Positions 40,831-45,041 of a stretch of 54,644 bases of DNA are shown piece after piece. Within the stretch, counting starts at the first letter, position 1, and every line of letters begins with the position of its first letter. The position numbers and the translations under genes are program-made. The stretch covers positions 1 to 54,644 of the forward strand of contig QCDD01000005.1 of the NCBI GenBank assembly GCA_003281045.1, in the 5' to 3' direction. The notes under the pieces are model-generated. The model saw nothing but the letters and a program-made list of their open reading frames with translations. It was not told the DNA's origin and ran no database searches. The stretch comes from Pelagibacteraceae bacterium AG-349-L23 (lineage in GTDB: Bacteria > Pseudomonadota > Alphaproteobacteria > Pelagibacterales > Pelagibacteraceae).

Positions 40831-42285
40831 ATGTCAGTAAATTTAAAAATCGACCCCTATGGTTTTAGAGAGTATGACGCTCGATGGTTGTATGAAAAAG
40901 ACATAAATCTCCTAGGCATAACGAATCTTGGCAAAGGACTAGGTACACAAATTATAAAACAAACAAATAAAACTAATCCAAAAGTAATTGTTGGTCATGA
41001 TTATCGATCATATAGCGAAGATATAAAAGCAGCGCTTAAAAAAGGTTTAGTTTCAACAGGTTGCTATGTTGAAGATGTAGGTTTGTCTTTGTCTCCGATG
41101 GTTTATTTTGCACAATTCCATTTTAATTCTGATGCTGTTGCAATGGTAACTGCAAGTCATAACGATAATGGTTGGACAGGTGTTAAAATGGGTATTAGGA
41201 AAGGATTAACACATGCACCTGAAGAAATGAAAGAATTAAAAGAAATAACATTAAGTGAAAACTTTGTAAACGGACAAGGTCAGGAAAAAAAAATAGAAGA
41301 TTTTCAAGATATATATAAAAAAAACTTAATAGATAACAATAAAATTAAAAAAAAAATTAAAGCAGTAGTAGCTTGTGGTAATGGAACTGCAGGAATTTTT
41401 GCTCCCGATATTTTGCGTGGAATTGGTTGTGATGTAATAGAACTTGATTGTAATTTAGACTGGACCTTCCCCAAATATAATCCTAATCCAGAAGATTTAA
41501 AAATGTTACATGCAATTTCAGATGCTGTTAAAAAAAATAATGCTGATATTGGGTTTGGATTTGATGGTGATGGTGACAGAGTAGGAGTAATTGATAATGA
41601 AGGAAATGAAATATTTTCAGATAAAATAGGATTATTAATTGCAAGAAGTTTATCAAATAAATATAAAAATTCAGTTTTTGTAGTGGATGTAAAGTCAACA
41701 GGGTTGTATGCAAATGATAAATTATTAAATACTAATAAATGTAAAACAATTTATTGGAAAACTGGCCATTCACATATCAAGAGAAAAGTTAACAATGAAA
41801 ACGCCTTGGCAGGATTTGAAAAGAGTGGACACTTTTTTTTCAATGAACCTTTGGGTTATGGGTATGACGATGGTATCAATTCAGCGATCCAAGTTTGTCA
41901 TTTATTGGATAAACAGAACAAAAAAATGAATGAAATCATTAAAGAAATTCCAAAAACATTTCAAACACCTACTATGGCTCCTTATTGTAAGGATGAGGAT
42001 AAATACGTGTTGGTAGATAAAATTGTTAAAGATATTGAAAAACTGAAAAATGAAAAAGTTAAAATAGATGACCAGGAAATTGAGGAAATCTTGACAATAA
42101 ATGGAGTTAGATTTTCGTTTAAAGACGGCTCATGGGGTTTGATAAGAGCTTCCTCTAATAAACCTTCGTTAGTAATTGTAACAGAAAGTCCTACATCTGA
42201 TGATAGAAAGTTAAAAATATTTAGATTTATAGACACTTTACTTCAAAAAACAGGTAAGATTGGTGAATACGACCAAAAAATTTAA
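40831..42285 (+). CDS. phosphomannomutase/phosphoglucomutase
   Basis: A 484-residue alpha-D-phosphohexomutase. Phosphoserine loop VTASHNDNGWTGVK (Ser109), metal loop DGDGDR (245-250), sugar-specificity loop GFEKSGHFFFNEPLGYG (near 329-345) and the C-terminal phosphate-binding RASSNKPSLVIVTES are all present. ManB/AlgC-type enzymes of this length interconvert mannose or glucose 1- and 6-phosphates. In this genome glucose 1-phosphate would also come from the GH13_18 phosphorylase, so a bifunctional role is attractive, though inferred. It is divergent from nrdA; both share the 159-base gap. Confidence 0.9.
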   Translation: MSVNLKIDPYGFREYDARWLYEKDINLLGITNLGKGLGTQIIKQTNKTNPKVIVGHDYRSYSEDIKAALKKGLVSTGCYVEDVGLSLSPMVYFAQFHFNSDAVAMVTASHNDNGWTGVKMGIRKGLTHAPEEMKELKEITLSENFVNGQGQEKKIEDFQDIYKKNLIDNNKIKKKIKAVVACGNGTAGIFAPDILRGIGCDVIELDCNLDWTFPKYNPNPEDLKMLHAISDAVKKNNADIGFGFDGDGDRVGVIDNEGNEIFSDKIGLLIARSLSNKYKNSVFVVDVKSTGLYANDKLLNTNKCKTIYWKTGHSHIKRKVNNENALAGFEKSGHFFFNEPLGYGYDDGINSAIQVCHLLDKQNKKMNEIIKEIPKTFQTPTMAPYCKDEDKYVLVDKIVKDIEKLKNEKVKIDDQEIEEILTINGVRFSFKDGSWGLIRASSNKPSLVIVTESPTSDDRKLKIFRFIDTLLQKTGKIGEYDQKI

Positions 42286-42289
42286 TTAA

Positions 42290-43357
42290 TCATTCTTTAT
42301 CTTCAGACTCGTTTTTATTTGATGAGTTGTCACTATAAAATTTTTTAATTAATTCTTCTTCCTTCTTTTTTTGCTCTAAATCAAATTTTTCCTCCCACTC
42401 TTTCAACCTTTTCTCTTCCTCTTGAATTCTTTGTTCTTCCTCTAATTTCTGTTTAATTTCTCTATCTTTTTCCTCCTCAATTCTTTTTTGTTCTTCCTCT
42501 TCTTTTCTTAATTCTTCTGTTCTTTCATGCTCTTCTTTTTGACGTAGAAATCTCTCCTCTTCTTCAGCTTTAATTTTTTCCTCTTTAAGTCTTAATTCTT
42601 CTTCTTTAACTCTTTGTTCTGCTTGCTCCTTTAAAATTTGTCTCTCTATCTCTTTTTGTCTCTCATTTTCGATCTCTTTTAGTCTAATTTCTGACTCTTT
42701 AAGTTTTTCCTCCTCATATTTTAATCTTTTAGCTGCTTCTCGATTTTTTTGTTCCTCATCTAATCTTTTTTGTCTTTCTATTTCACTAAGTCTAATTTGT
42801 TCTTGTCTTTCTCTCTCTTTTTCTTCTCTTAATTGTTGTGCTTTGATTTCTTTTTCTTTTAAAGCTTGTTCTTTTGCTTTTATTTTTTCTTCCCTCTCCC
42901 TTTGTCTCTCTAACATTCTTAATCTAAGTTCTTCCTCTTTAATCTTTCTGGCATCCTCTCTAATTTTTCTAGCTTCCTCGTCTTTAATTTTTTGTTGTTC
43001 AATTAATATTCTTTTAGCTTCAATTTTTTTTCTTCTTTCCTCATTTTTTTTAATTTGCTTTTCGTTTTCAATAATCAGTCTTCTTTGTTCAAGAATTTGT
43101 TTTTTTTCTTCTTTTATTCTTTCTTCTTTTTCTCTTTGAGCTTGTTTTTTTTGTAATTCTAATTCTCTTTTTTCATTGATAATTCTTTGCTTTTCAGACC
43201 TTTTTTTACTTATTGCTCTGTCTTTTTGTAACTTTTTATAGAAATTCTCTAATTTATTTTTACCTTGTTCAATGAAATTAAATGGGTTCATATCAAATTT
43301 ACCCTTTTTACTAGCTCGACTATCAGATTTATTGTTATCTCTTTTTTTTTGAGCCAT
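42290..43357 (-). CDS. highly charged coiled-coil protein
   Basis: A protein of about 355 residues dominated by Lys, Glu, Arg and Gln in irregular heptads from about residue 35 to 345. It has no cysteine in the helix region, no signal peptide and no membrane segment. A short N-terminal part (MAQKKRDNNKSDSRASKKGKF) is basic, then a NPFNFIEQGKNKLENFYKKL stretch precedes the coil. It looks like a long single alpha-helix or coiled coil similar in composition to the stalk of TolA or to cytoskeletal and ruler proteins, but it has no TolA membrane anchor. I chose ATG 43357; an in-frame GTG at 43372 is possible. Function unknown. Confidence 0.75.
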   Translation of the reverse strand: MAQKKRDNNKSDSRASKKGKFDMNPFNFIEQGKNKLENFYKKLQKDRAISKKRSEKQRIINEKRELELQKKQAQREKEERIKEEKKQILEQRRLIIENEKQIKKNEERRKKIEAKRILIEQQKIKDEEARKIREDARKIKEEELRLRMLERQREREEKIKAKEQALKEKEIKAQQLREEKERERQEQIRLSEIERQKRLDEEQKNREAAKRLKYEEEKLKESEIRLKEIENERQKEIERQILKEQAEQRVKEEELRLKEEKIKAEEEERFLRQKEEHERTEELRKEEEEQKRIEEEKDREIKQKLEEEQRIQEEEKRLKEWEEKFDLEQKKKEEELIKKFYSDNSSNKNESEDKE

Positions 43358-43454
43358 ATTAAAAGTTAACACTATTTAAATTATTTTAAATATAAACCAT
43401 GTGTTTAAATTGAGGTTTTTTGATTATTTCAATTTTTACGTGCACAATGAGATA

Positions 43455-43545
43455 ATTTTTTTAAAAAAATATTTTGATTCGTAAGGAGAATCGAATAATT
43501 TTCAGATATGGGTGGTAGAGGGAGACTGAAGCCACCCTTTTTTTT
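43455..43545 (+). ncRNA. candidate small RNA with an intrinsic terminator
   Basis: The 171-base gap between two minus-strand genes holds plus-strand features that need their own transcript: a weak promoter match (TTGATT 43420-43425, 17 bases, CACAAT 43443-43448), a hairpin GATTC/GAATC near 43475-43491, then two interleaved pairings, TTCAG/CTGAA (43501-43505 with 43526-43530) and GGGTGG/CCACCC (43510-43515 with 43532-43537), which together would form a pseudoknot. Eight T residues (43538-43545) follow at once. The 5' end is a guess from the promoter. No protein-coding frame explains the region. No match to a known RNA family is recognised. Confidence 0.4.
43510..43545 (+). terminator. intrinsic terminator on the plus strand
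   Basis: A 6-bp GC-rich stem GGGTGG/CCACCC (43510-43515, 43532-43537) with a 16-base loop is followed directly by TTTTTTTT. There is no plus-strand gene just upstream (the nearest ends at 42285), so it most likely ends a small RNA. The T-run overlaps the end of the minus-strand GNAT-like gene. Confidence 0.6.
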
Positions 43546-44194
43546 AGTACTTCTTATTCTTAATAACTTTATATTCAAAATTTTGAGTTGTTTCGTTTAC
43601 ACTAATTAGTTTAGCGCCATTTTTTATGTGAAATTTATAAGCCATATCTGTTAAAGGAGATAAAGTTACTAATCTGTTGAGATGATTTGATTTCTTTATT
43701 TTATTAAATACTTCTTTGACAATTAATTTTCCACCACCTTTTTTTTTTGACCATACCGTATAGGCGATTGCAATTTTACCTACATTCTGTCCTCTTAGAG
43801 TACTCTGTAAATGAGCATCTTGACTCATAATATCTAACTCTTCTACAGACTTTGGTATTTCATTTGTATAAGCAAAACACATGACAGCATGGATTTCTCT
43901 TTTATACTTAACCCCAAAAATTTTTCTTCCATAACTTCTTCTAAAAGTATTATCAAGCTCTGGTCTTACAGGATCTTCTTTAGTATTACATTCTTTCAAC
44001 TCTACTAATTCTGCGCCTTTAACCCAATCGAAAAAATTACCAATATTTTTACCTATAATTTGTTTATTTTTTCTAAATCTTGCTTTTATTCTTGGCTTAA
44101 ATTTCTTGGTTCTTTTTGAATAGTTTTTAATAGAACCATCTTTCAAATATTTAGCTACAAGTTTTTCTTTAACGACTTTAATAATTTCTCTCAT
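43544..44194 (-). CDS. GNAT-like acyltransferase, function unknown
   Basis: A 216-residue basic protein. The N-terminal ~55 residues are rich in Lys and Arg (KPRIKARFRKNKQIIGKNIG). The C-terminal half has the layout of a GNAT N-acetyltransferase: strand VGKIAIAYTVWSKKKGGGKLIVKEVFNKIKK (about 133-163, similar to the acetyl-CoA loop) and then RLVTLSPLTDMAYKFHIKNGAKLI (about 170-193), the usual strand plus FxxxxGF-type helix. The acetyl-CoA Q/RxxGxG/A motif is not clear, so activity is uncertain. It follows the two TauE/SafE genes with a short gap and may end their transcript. Confidence 0.6.
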   Translation of the reverse strand: MREIIKVVKEKLVAKYLKDGSIKNYSKRTKKFKPRIKARFRKNKQIIGKNIGNFFDWVKGAELVELKECNTKEDPVRPELDNTFRRSYGRKIFGVKYKREIHAVMCFAYTNEIPKSVEELDIMSQDAHLQSTLRGQNVGKIAIAYTVWSKKKGGGKLIVKEVFNKIKKSNHLNRLVTLSPLTDMAYKFHIKNGAKLISVNETTQNFEYKVIKNKKY

Positions 44195-44207: not shown

Positions 44208-45041
44208 TTATAAACTAAAATATCTAAATATAAAAATTGTCCCAATAACATAGAGAAAAACTCCAAACATTCTTTGAGCTTTAATTTTACTCATTTTATG
44301 TACTGTATTAACTCCTACTCTTGCCATTAAAGTTGTTATTGGAATAAATATTAAAAAAGCTGGGATATTTACAAAACCAATACTTAAAGGCAGACTAACA
44401 TCTAAATAAAGTCCAGTTGAAAAAAATCCTATTGTGCCTGAAATGGAAATAACCCAACCAATTGCAGCAGCGCTACCAATAGCTTTTGTAATTGGATATC
44501 CAAAAAATCTTAATATAGGAACATTCATCATTGCTCCTGTAATACCCATAGGTGCAGAAATTGAACCAGATATAAAGCCTAAAATAGCTTTCGAAAAAAA
44601 ACCAAAACTAGGTTTAATTTTGTTTGAATTTTCTTGTTCTAAAAGCAGGTAAGCACCAAACATGAAAACAACAATTGAAAAAAAAAGAACTAAATATTTT
44701 GTTTTTAAAAAAGCTGCTAAAAATGAACCAAAAAATACTCCCAAAATAACAAATGATCCAAAAATTTTTAAAATACTTAAATCAACTGCATTATGTTTTC
44801 TGTGGGTAAGAACAGAGGCTGTTGAAGTAAATATCGTTATGAAAAATGCAGTACCAACAGCTAAGTGCATTGTGTAATCATCAGTAAGATTTAAAAAGTC
44901 AAATATAAAAAAAAGAAATGGAACCGATATTAAGCCACCTCCTATCCCAAAAAGGCCAGCAAAAAAACCAACAGGTATAGCAGCCATGACCATCAAAATA
45001 ATCAAATAAAAATAATTTAGATTTGTAAGGGAGTCGGTCAA
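44208..45041 (-). CDS. TauE/SafE family permease (second copy)
   Basis: A 277-residue inner-membrane protein with about eight hydrophobic segments in two related halves. Family marks are GFFAGLFGIGGGLISVPFL in the first half and SGSISAPMGITGAMMNVPILRFFGYP in the second. TauE/SafE proteins are thought to export or take up sulfite, sulfoacetate or related sulfur and organic anions. It is clearly a paralogue of the protein encoded just upstream, 11 bases away. Substrate unknown. Confidence 0.87.
   Translation of the reverse strand: MTDSLTNLNYFYLIILMVMAAIPVGFFAGLFGIGGGLISVPFLFFIFDFLNLTDDYTMHLAVGTAFFITIFTSTASVLTHRKHNAVDLSILKIFGSFVILGVFFGSFLAAFLKTKYLVLFFSIVVFMFGAYLLLEQENSNKIKPSFGFFSKAILGFISGSISAPMGITGAMMNVPILRFFGYPITKAIGSAAAIGWVISISGTIGFFSTGLYLDVSLPLSIGFVNIPAFLIFIPITTLMARVGVNTVHKMSKIKAQRMFGVFLYVIGTIFIFRYFSL

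Follow-up and report, generated by a model that had tools for sequence, protein, structure and literature searches.

Small RNAs of the CsrB/RsmY type titrate a protein, CsrA recognizes the motif ANGGAN, and pseudo-ToxI is a phage RNA that acts as a mimic or decoy of a host RNA. In the window, by which we mean the whole 54,644-nucleotide stretch of Pelagibacteraceae bacterium AG-349-L23 DNA that was analyzed, we found a plus-strand hairpin that can be compared with these and other systems. It resembles an intrinsic (Rho-independent) terminator in that a GC-rich stem is followed by eight T in the window, but it differs in having a 16-nt loop with a conserved 12-nt core on a freely varying stem, and in occurring without the T-run in 62 of 190 distinct host elements and in 50 of 51 distinct viral copies. 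With the CsrB/RsmY-type RNAs and CsrA-binding hairpins it would share the loop-recognized hairpin and the decoy logic proposed below, and AGGGAG of its loop fits the CsrA motif, whereas it consists of a single hairpin only, its conservation extends to ACUGAA, and CsrA is absent from the genomes tested. The resemblance to pseudo-ToxI is that an RNA element of the host has a counterpart in a phage; here, however, phages of more than one lineage have it, the copies are embedded in mRNAs, and no toxin partner is known.

Two further comparisons concern the host. The upstream DNA is similar to the GcrA/CcrM-dependent promoters of Alphaproteobacteria in placing GANTC near sigma70-like elements in bacteria that have GcrA; the element has GAATC where the motif described for Caulobacter is YGAKTCK (PMC7987155). 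The rhtB element and other Pelagibacter candidate RNAs are likewise SAR11 hairpins, with poly-U in about half (Meyer 2009, PMC2704228). That element belongs to another locus (rhtB/SAR11_1363, 1297623-1297755), whereas ours lies at 1142943-1143029 of an HTCC1062-like complete genome, within the intergenic region 1142870-1143031 (SAR11_1190/1191, 29 BLAST hits) that Table 1 of the same paper gives without an RNA. No earlier description of this hairpin was seen among the matches listed from the open-access literature, and as far as tested it appears to represent a new hairpin RNA family.

The hairpin occupies the plus strand between two minus-strand ORFs (42290-43372 and 43544-44194) and consists of a 6-bp stem, a 16-nt loop and T8 (Table 1). 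Folding of positions 43508-43545 gave -14.5 kcal/mol (z -2.85), a value that no sequence among 200 shuffles equaled, which bears out the plus-strand hairpin with eight T that had been proposed from the letters alone. A simple terminator scan returned no match at the site because it allows only loops of 3-8 nt and this loop has 16. The tRNA search of the window found none, and Rfam 15 gave no match in the window at the gathering threshold; the 14 matches at E up to 10 were all sub-threshold, the best being SpF39 with 24.7 of 60 bits. The copy in phage HTVC031P had no Rfam match at E up to 1, and five host and phage loci had none at gathering. The sequence-only reading had also noted a weaker hairpin with a T-run on the minus strand; over 43373-43507 that strand showed no more folding than its shuffles (z -0.48). 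The self-complementary TTTTTTTAAAAAAA at 43455-43470, inside a clade-specific insertion, may explain the hairpin so noted.

Table 1. Features of the hairpin locus in the window (window positions) and loci of a second phage loop.
Feature	Position	Strand	Basis
Upstream box TTCAATTTTTACGTG (consensus TTCAAYTATTAMGTG), candidate activator-binding site	43428..43442	+	alignment, profile
A/T-rich stretch holding the 29-nt sub-clade insertion, contains TTTTTTTAAAAAAA	43443..43473	+	alignments; insertion ends inferred
Possible -35, TTGATT, 16 nt before the -10	43474..43479	+	window sequence; putative
GAATC (= GANTC, CcrM methylation site), between -35 and -10	43488..43492	+	190-element profile
-10, TAATTT (family consensus TAnnnT)	43496..43501	+	190-element profile
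Predicted transcription start at the hairpin foot, 7-9 nt after the -10	43508..43510	+	spacing; predicted
Hairpin, stem GGGTGG 43510-43515 / CCACCC 43532-43537	43510-43537	+	covariation + model R2
Conserved core of the loop TAG-AGGGAGACTGAA-G	43519-43530	+	covariation + model R2
T8 tract TTTTTTTT, intrinsic-terminator tail	43538-43545	+	window sequence
Second phage hairpin loop, capsid/tail tubular A slot	L386, L393, L384, L387, L391, L380 21045-21141		

BLAST over 61 genomes found the 3' part of the locus in several genomes of the same genus, and the aligned same-genus loci shared the box TTCAAYTATTAMGTG, GAATC and a hairpin with the loop AGGGAGACTGAA. Two covariance models were then used, both built on some of the sequences that they afterwards matched: R1 includes the promoter part, and R2 covers the hairpin only and derives from 18 hand-picked host and phage sequences. 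With R1 (E up to 0.1) the element was present in 238 of 399 genomes of the window's genus. It was carried by 40 of the 57 near-complete genomes (at least 90% complete), and since the other 17 had no match, it is not essential genus-wide. Over the order (E up to 0.01), R1 matched 160 of 297 genomes; of the 11 genera only two were represented, and these belong to the window's family. R2 found 229 of the 399 genus genomes, and over 289 genomes of the class it found the window's genome, one same-genus genome and one borderline match (E 0.006). The element hardly occurs outside the window's family.

R2 also showed the element to be single-copy in 228 of those 229 genomes, the exception being G404. 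Its only hit in the window (50 bits, 43506-43541) and its only hit in the complete genome of 1,308,759 bp (44.5 bits, the next reaching 15.1 bits at E 3.8) arise by construction, the training set of R2 containing the window, the complete genome and seven phages; the absence of further hits does not. R1 gave two matches in 16 genomes. G404 has a true duplication (locus L372, around 2074 and 2554), in which the whole unit stands in tandem 480 bp apart, each copy with its own box, GAATC and hairpin. A second R1 scan of 96 loci added three matches, all weak (19-22.5 bits), of which one overlaps its locus's hairpin on the opposite strand.

Base pairing in the stem was assessed on 18 hairpins hand-picked from host and phage as diverse. 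Paired cells made up 99.2% of the stem against 75.0% in shuffles (0 of 500 as high), double-change cells numbered 35 against 8.4 (0 of 500), and changes on both sides affected all seven pairs (2 of 500), while sliding the partner strand destroyed the signal. This covariation among relatives, together with the lack of a gathering-score match in Rfam, lends support to the proposal of the sequence-only reading that a plus-strand small RNA of no known family lies opposite the neighboring genes. What that reading overlooked is that the loop is the conserved heart of the element and that the same hairpin is carried by the host's phages. The loop AGGGAGACTGAA was exact in 37 of 40 model-found loci and differed by one or two bases in the other three; that of the HTCC1062-like genome has two differences. 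Among 190 pooled distinct host elements, a set for which at most two loop mismatches were allowed and to which an exact-loop scan contributed 120 loci, it was exact in 185, on 16 different 6-bp stem pairs. The exact scans (120 host and 104 viral loci) accepted only an unchanged loop on a stem of the form GGYGR..YCRCC, and loop invariance and stem make-up in those loci are therefore partly due to selection. The T-run follows the hairpin in 128 of the 190 elements, and the 3' end is uncertain in the others.

The conserved DNA upstream of the hairpin has the layout of a promoter. GAATC precedes the loop core by 29-33 nt in 188 of the 190 host elements and by 18 nt in the other 2. Elements found with R1 were selected for the promoter part, but loci chosen by the hairpin alone were not, and GAATC stood 5-35 nt upstream in 118 of 119 of these. 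At 8 and 9 bases after GAATC, the 190 elements have T in 98% and A in 100%, the beginning of a -10 whose last T is kept in 78%. For the -35, the family profile points not to the window's candidate but to TTnAnA with an 18-nt spacer, its TT occurring in 79 and 97% of the elements. The upstream box adjoins these promoter elements in the profile, and its distance to GAATC was exactly 16 nt in all 16 pattern matches, although 14-20 nt was allowed. In the window the box is shifted 29 nt upstream relative to the aligned relatives, an arrangement common to the five loci examined (L510, L511, L513, which is the window, L516 and L517), and the 29-nt insertion of this sub-clade falls between box and GAATC. 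The window's inverted repeat GATTC/GAATC (43476-43480/43488-43492) lies, as comparison shows, within this promoter-like DNA. In the sister genus g8 (L339-L358), 19 of 20 elements have a second GANTC in the box.

In the complete genome the whole-promoter score was 35.6 at the element and 3.8 at the next best site; the upstream box by itself had a weaker match at 1110614 (18.2 against 24.5). A promoter common to other genes was rejected, as the block pattern occurred once each in 16 of 61 genomes and, by coordinates, at the hairpin locus. GcrA was encoded in 11 of 11 genomes tested, and GANTC is about half as frequent in the complete genome G427 as base composition predicts (1586 found, 3473 expected). 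For HTCC1062, Meyer 2009 (PMC2704228) names bablM as a site-specific DNA methylase. Because 6-10 nt separate the last -10 base from the first stem base in 188 of 190 elements, the predicted transcription start coincides with the foot of the hairpin, which we regard as probable. With a start at the foot and an end at the T-run where present, the predicted RNA would measure ~38 nt and be essentially a bare hairpin. As in a small RNA gene with its own promoter, conserved promoter-like DNA stands at a fixed distance, and the transcript is predicted from it.

These results leave little of the larger RNA that the sequence-only reading had drawn, a pseudoknotted small RNA or riboswitch of ~170 nt. 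The 173-nt extent (43373-43545) is rejected because the conserved upstream blocks have promoter geometry, with the fixed spacing of promoter DNA. Both proposed crossing stems can indeed be written in the window, TTCAG (43501-43505) with CTGAA (43526-43530) crossing the hairpin stem, but the former pair is not conserved: the window is the sole carrier of TTCAG among the 190 host elements, against a shuffled mean of 2.25, and the close relatives L510, L511, L516 and L517 break the pairing with TTTAA or TTTAG at that place. The pseudoknot is thus rejected, and riboswitch-like geometry falls with it; a same-strand gene follows in 0 of 113 host loci with a called downstream ORF. We consider the whole reading hardly conceivable.

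In the host, the neighborhood was compared over 120 named-contig loci. Wherever a downstream ORF was called (113 loci), it was convergent, and 75 of these ORFs fall in a TauE/SafE-like cluster (the window's TauE is at 44208-45041), so the host hairpin is not the leader of a downstream gene. In the window, ORF 43544-44194 (216 aa) overlaps with its end the end of T8 and matches the C-terminal domain of malonyl-CoA decarboxylase only below threshold (19.6 of 23.2 bits). The claim that no plus-strand gene precedes the terminator holds for the immediate neighbor, ORF 42290-43372, beyond which lies a phosphomannomutase-type gene on the plus strand (40831-42285). ORF 42290-43372 itself encodes 360 aa with a very high content of K, E, R and Q and matched no Pfam family at E 0.001; an antisense K/E-rich ORF of cluster c4 stands upstream in 35 of the 120 loci.

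The upstream side of the host locus suggests another explanation, in which the hairpin acts in cis as a 3'-end or processing element that a nuclease or termination factor of the host recognizes. It would end upstream-gene transcripts in the host and separate or protect segments of long mRNAs in phages. The upstream ORF has the same strand in 69 of 111 loci, 53 of these in the phosphomannomutase cluster, with a median distance of 71 nt from its stop to the hairpin (69 loci), and the T-run of most host elements would suit such a role. A terminator, however, needs no conserved 12-nt loop, the promoter-like DNA is conserved as well, and in the window the antisense ORF separates the phosphomannomutase gene from the hairpin. 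The phage copies bear further on this explanation.

An exact pattern scan of IMG/VR found the same loop on other stems in 104 contigs, 51 of them distinct. The gene upstream of the viral hairpin is on its strand in 95 of 100 cases, and the gene downstream in 98 of 101. Of the 51 distinct viral copies, 1 has the T-run and 2 have GAATC; of 119 distinct host copies, 86 have the T-run and 118 have GAATC. Two contexts dominate, one with a PHROG 2402 protein of unknown function upstream (53) and primase downstream (53), the other with capsid upstream (36) and tail tubular protein A downstream (35).

Named phage isolates, which do not depend on IMG/VR contig assembly, were searched as whole records (22, of which 20 infect Pelagibacter and 2 roseobacters). 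In 12 of the 20 Pelagibacter phages, exactly one match to GGGAGACTGAA (at most one mismatch) was found, each in a hairpin of at least 36 bits, whereas base composition predicts ~0.004 exact 12-mers per phage genome. Seven of these phages had contributed to R2 (HTVC031P, 021P, 022P, 168P, 109P, 120P and 027P) and five had not (HTVC142P, 121P, 019P, 201P and 131P). After GGGAG the phage loops continue with ACTGAA, ACTAAA, ACTTAA, ACTCAA or ACTGGA. Of three loop matches in the T4-like HTVC008M, one sits in a hairpin that scores weakly (22 bits). No clear copy was found in HTVC010P, 023P, 025P, 200P, 119P, 011P and EXVC025P, 7 of the 20, the last with a degenerate copy of 21 bits. In HTVC011P a short GGGGTT-GGGAGACT-AACCCC was seen by eye. 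One of the two roseobacter phages had a one-mismatch match but no hairpin, and the other had none. Altogether, comparison shows that Pelagibacter phages carry one hairpin per genome with this loop, on stems unrelated to those of the host and in the sense direction of the phage mRNAs.

The hairpin fills the slot between capsid and tail tubular protein A in HTVC031P, 142P, 168P, 109P and 120P, and the lysozyme/primase interval in HTVC019P, 021P, 022P and 121P. It precedes primase in HTVC027P, an HTVC023P-type phage (PMC12753301), and, in its weak form, endonuclease V in HTVC008M; the copies of HTVC201P and HTVC131P are found at 8.2-8.6 kb. Since the positions differ, no single regulated phage gene explains the copies. 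Two other phage hairpin loops were observed besides. A second conserved loop, approximately TAACAC[AT]GACAA, occupies the capsid/tail tubular slot of HTVC201P, 131P, 200P, 119P, 011P and 019P (loci in Table 1), and no exact copy of it in a stem of at least 5 bp occurred among the host and IMG/VR loci scanned.

The capsid/tail tubular A position of the five phages would suit the cis-acting element. T7 offers analogues in the terminator between genes 10 and 11 and in its RNase III sites, and we take the capsid/tail tubular A position to correspond to that of the T7 terminator; in two Pseudomonas phage records a terminator is listed with the tail tubular match. Against this stand the near absence of the T-run from viral copies and its placement elsewhere in other phages, between lysozyme and primase, ahead of primase or, weakly, ahead of endonuclease V. 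We judge the cis-acting element unlikely. A T7-type phage promoter (GGGAGA) was considered as well. Such promoters occur in several copies per phage genome, and a phage RNA-polymerase promoter is rejected because GGGAGACTGAA matches once, at up to one mismatch, in all 12 phages whose hairpin is clear. An attachment site was judged unlikely, as host and phage stems differ and the phage copies stand among structural or replication genes.

The proximity of primase genes raises the question of whether the element acts as DNA, as a cruciform or a single-strand initiation site, and not as RNA. A primase-like gene comes next in 56 of 104 viral contigs (clusters c3, which matches annotated primases, and c15, judged by eye), and a DnaA-box-like TATCCACA precedes the box in 19 of 20 g8 elements, in 8 of them as the full TTATCCACA, though in 0 of 170 other elements. 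The orientation, however, is fixed with respect to the following phage genes and, in the host, to promoter and T-run. By the GC skew of the one complete genome (minimum near 340 kb, maximum near 980 kb), the element at 1143 kb is away from both origin and terminus, and a role as either was rejected. A DNA-level element is therefore very improbable.

The exposed, conserved loop of a hairpin is a usual seat of a seed, and a free-standing hairpin of this kind could be a base-pairing small RNA that pairs through its loop with target mRNAs, the phage copies redirecting or sponging the targets. The complement of the loop is rare in the complete genome: AGTCTCCC occurs once besides the locus itself, and GTCTCCC has ten sites, the locus included. 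Base pairing of the loop to mRNA was set aside on this ground and is improbable. A protein that reads the loop suits the data better than base pairing because the complement is rare, and better than a terminator because there is almost no T-run in phages. No candidate for such a protein came to light. CsrA, the obvious analogue, was found in 0 of 11 genomes, while the control detected it in three of 14, E. coli among them; a CsrA decoy is rejected accordingly.

Comparison shows, in the hosts, a single-copy unit in which promoter-like DNA of nearly fixed spacing precedes a hairpin with a covarying stem and a little-changing loop, AGGGAGACUGAA. Very probably this is a real plus-strand RNA hairpin gene. 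A fixed loop on free stems, in single copy, free in the host and embedded in mRNAs in the phages, favors a host protein as its reader. The best overall explanation, to which we give slightly less than an even chance, is a small hairpin RNA gene whose loop is bound by a protein and of which phages carry copies. The unit would yield an RNA of ~38 nt, started at the hairpin foot by a sigma70 promoter that may need an upstream activator and CcrM methylation with GcrA. A host RNA-binding protein might then bind the loop. The host would make the free hairpin as a titrating decoy or a carrier for that protein, tied to replication, and the phages would build the hairpin into their mRNAs, where it would either sequester the protein or serve the flanking genes as operator or protector. 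The protein ligand and decoy mechanism is possible but on balance doubtful. In its most specific form, which we think rather unlikely as a whole, the proposal is of an undescribed SAR11 hairpin RNA of ~38 nt under a replication-coupled CcrM/GcrA promoter, whose loop phages of at least two, perhaps three, unrelated lineages mimic, each with one copy, so as to bind the RNA-binding protein that it binds in the host.

Few ocean bacteria are as abundant as SAR11, yet we found only a small number of described small RNAs for this group. The surprising part is that this hairpin is shared with the host's own phages. A single-copy hairpin that different phages preserve points to a host RNA-binding factor important in infection, for which the loop would be a ready bait, and published infection RNA-seq can be re-read with it in mind. 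If true, the finding would mean that viruses mimic an RNA of their hosts in a group that counts among the most abundant bacteria of the sea.
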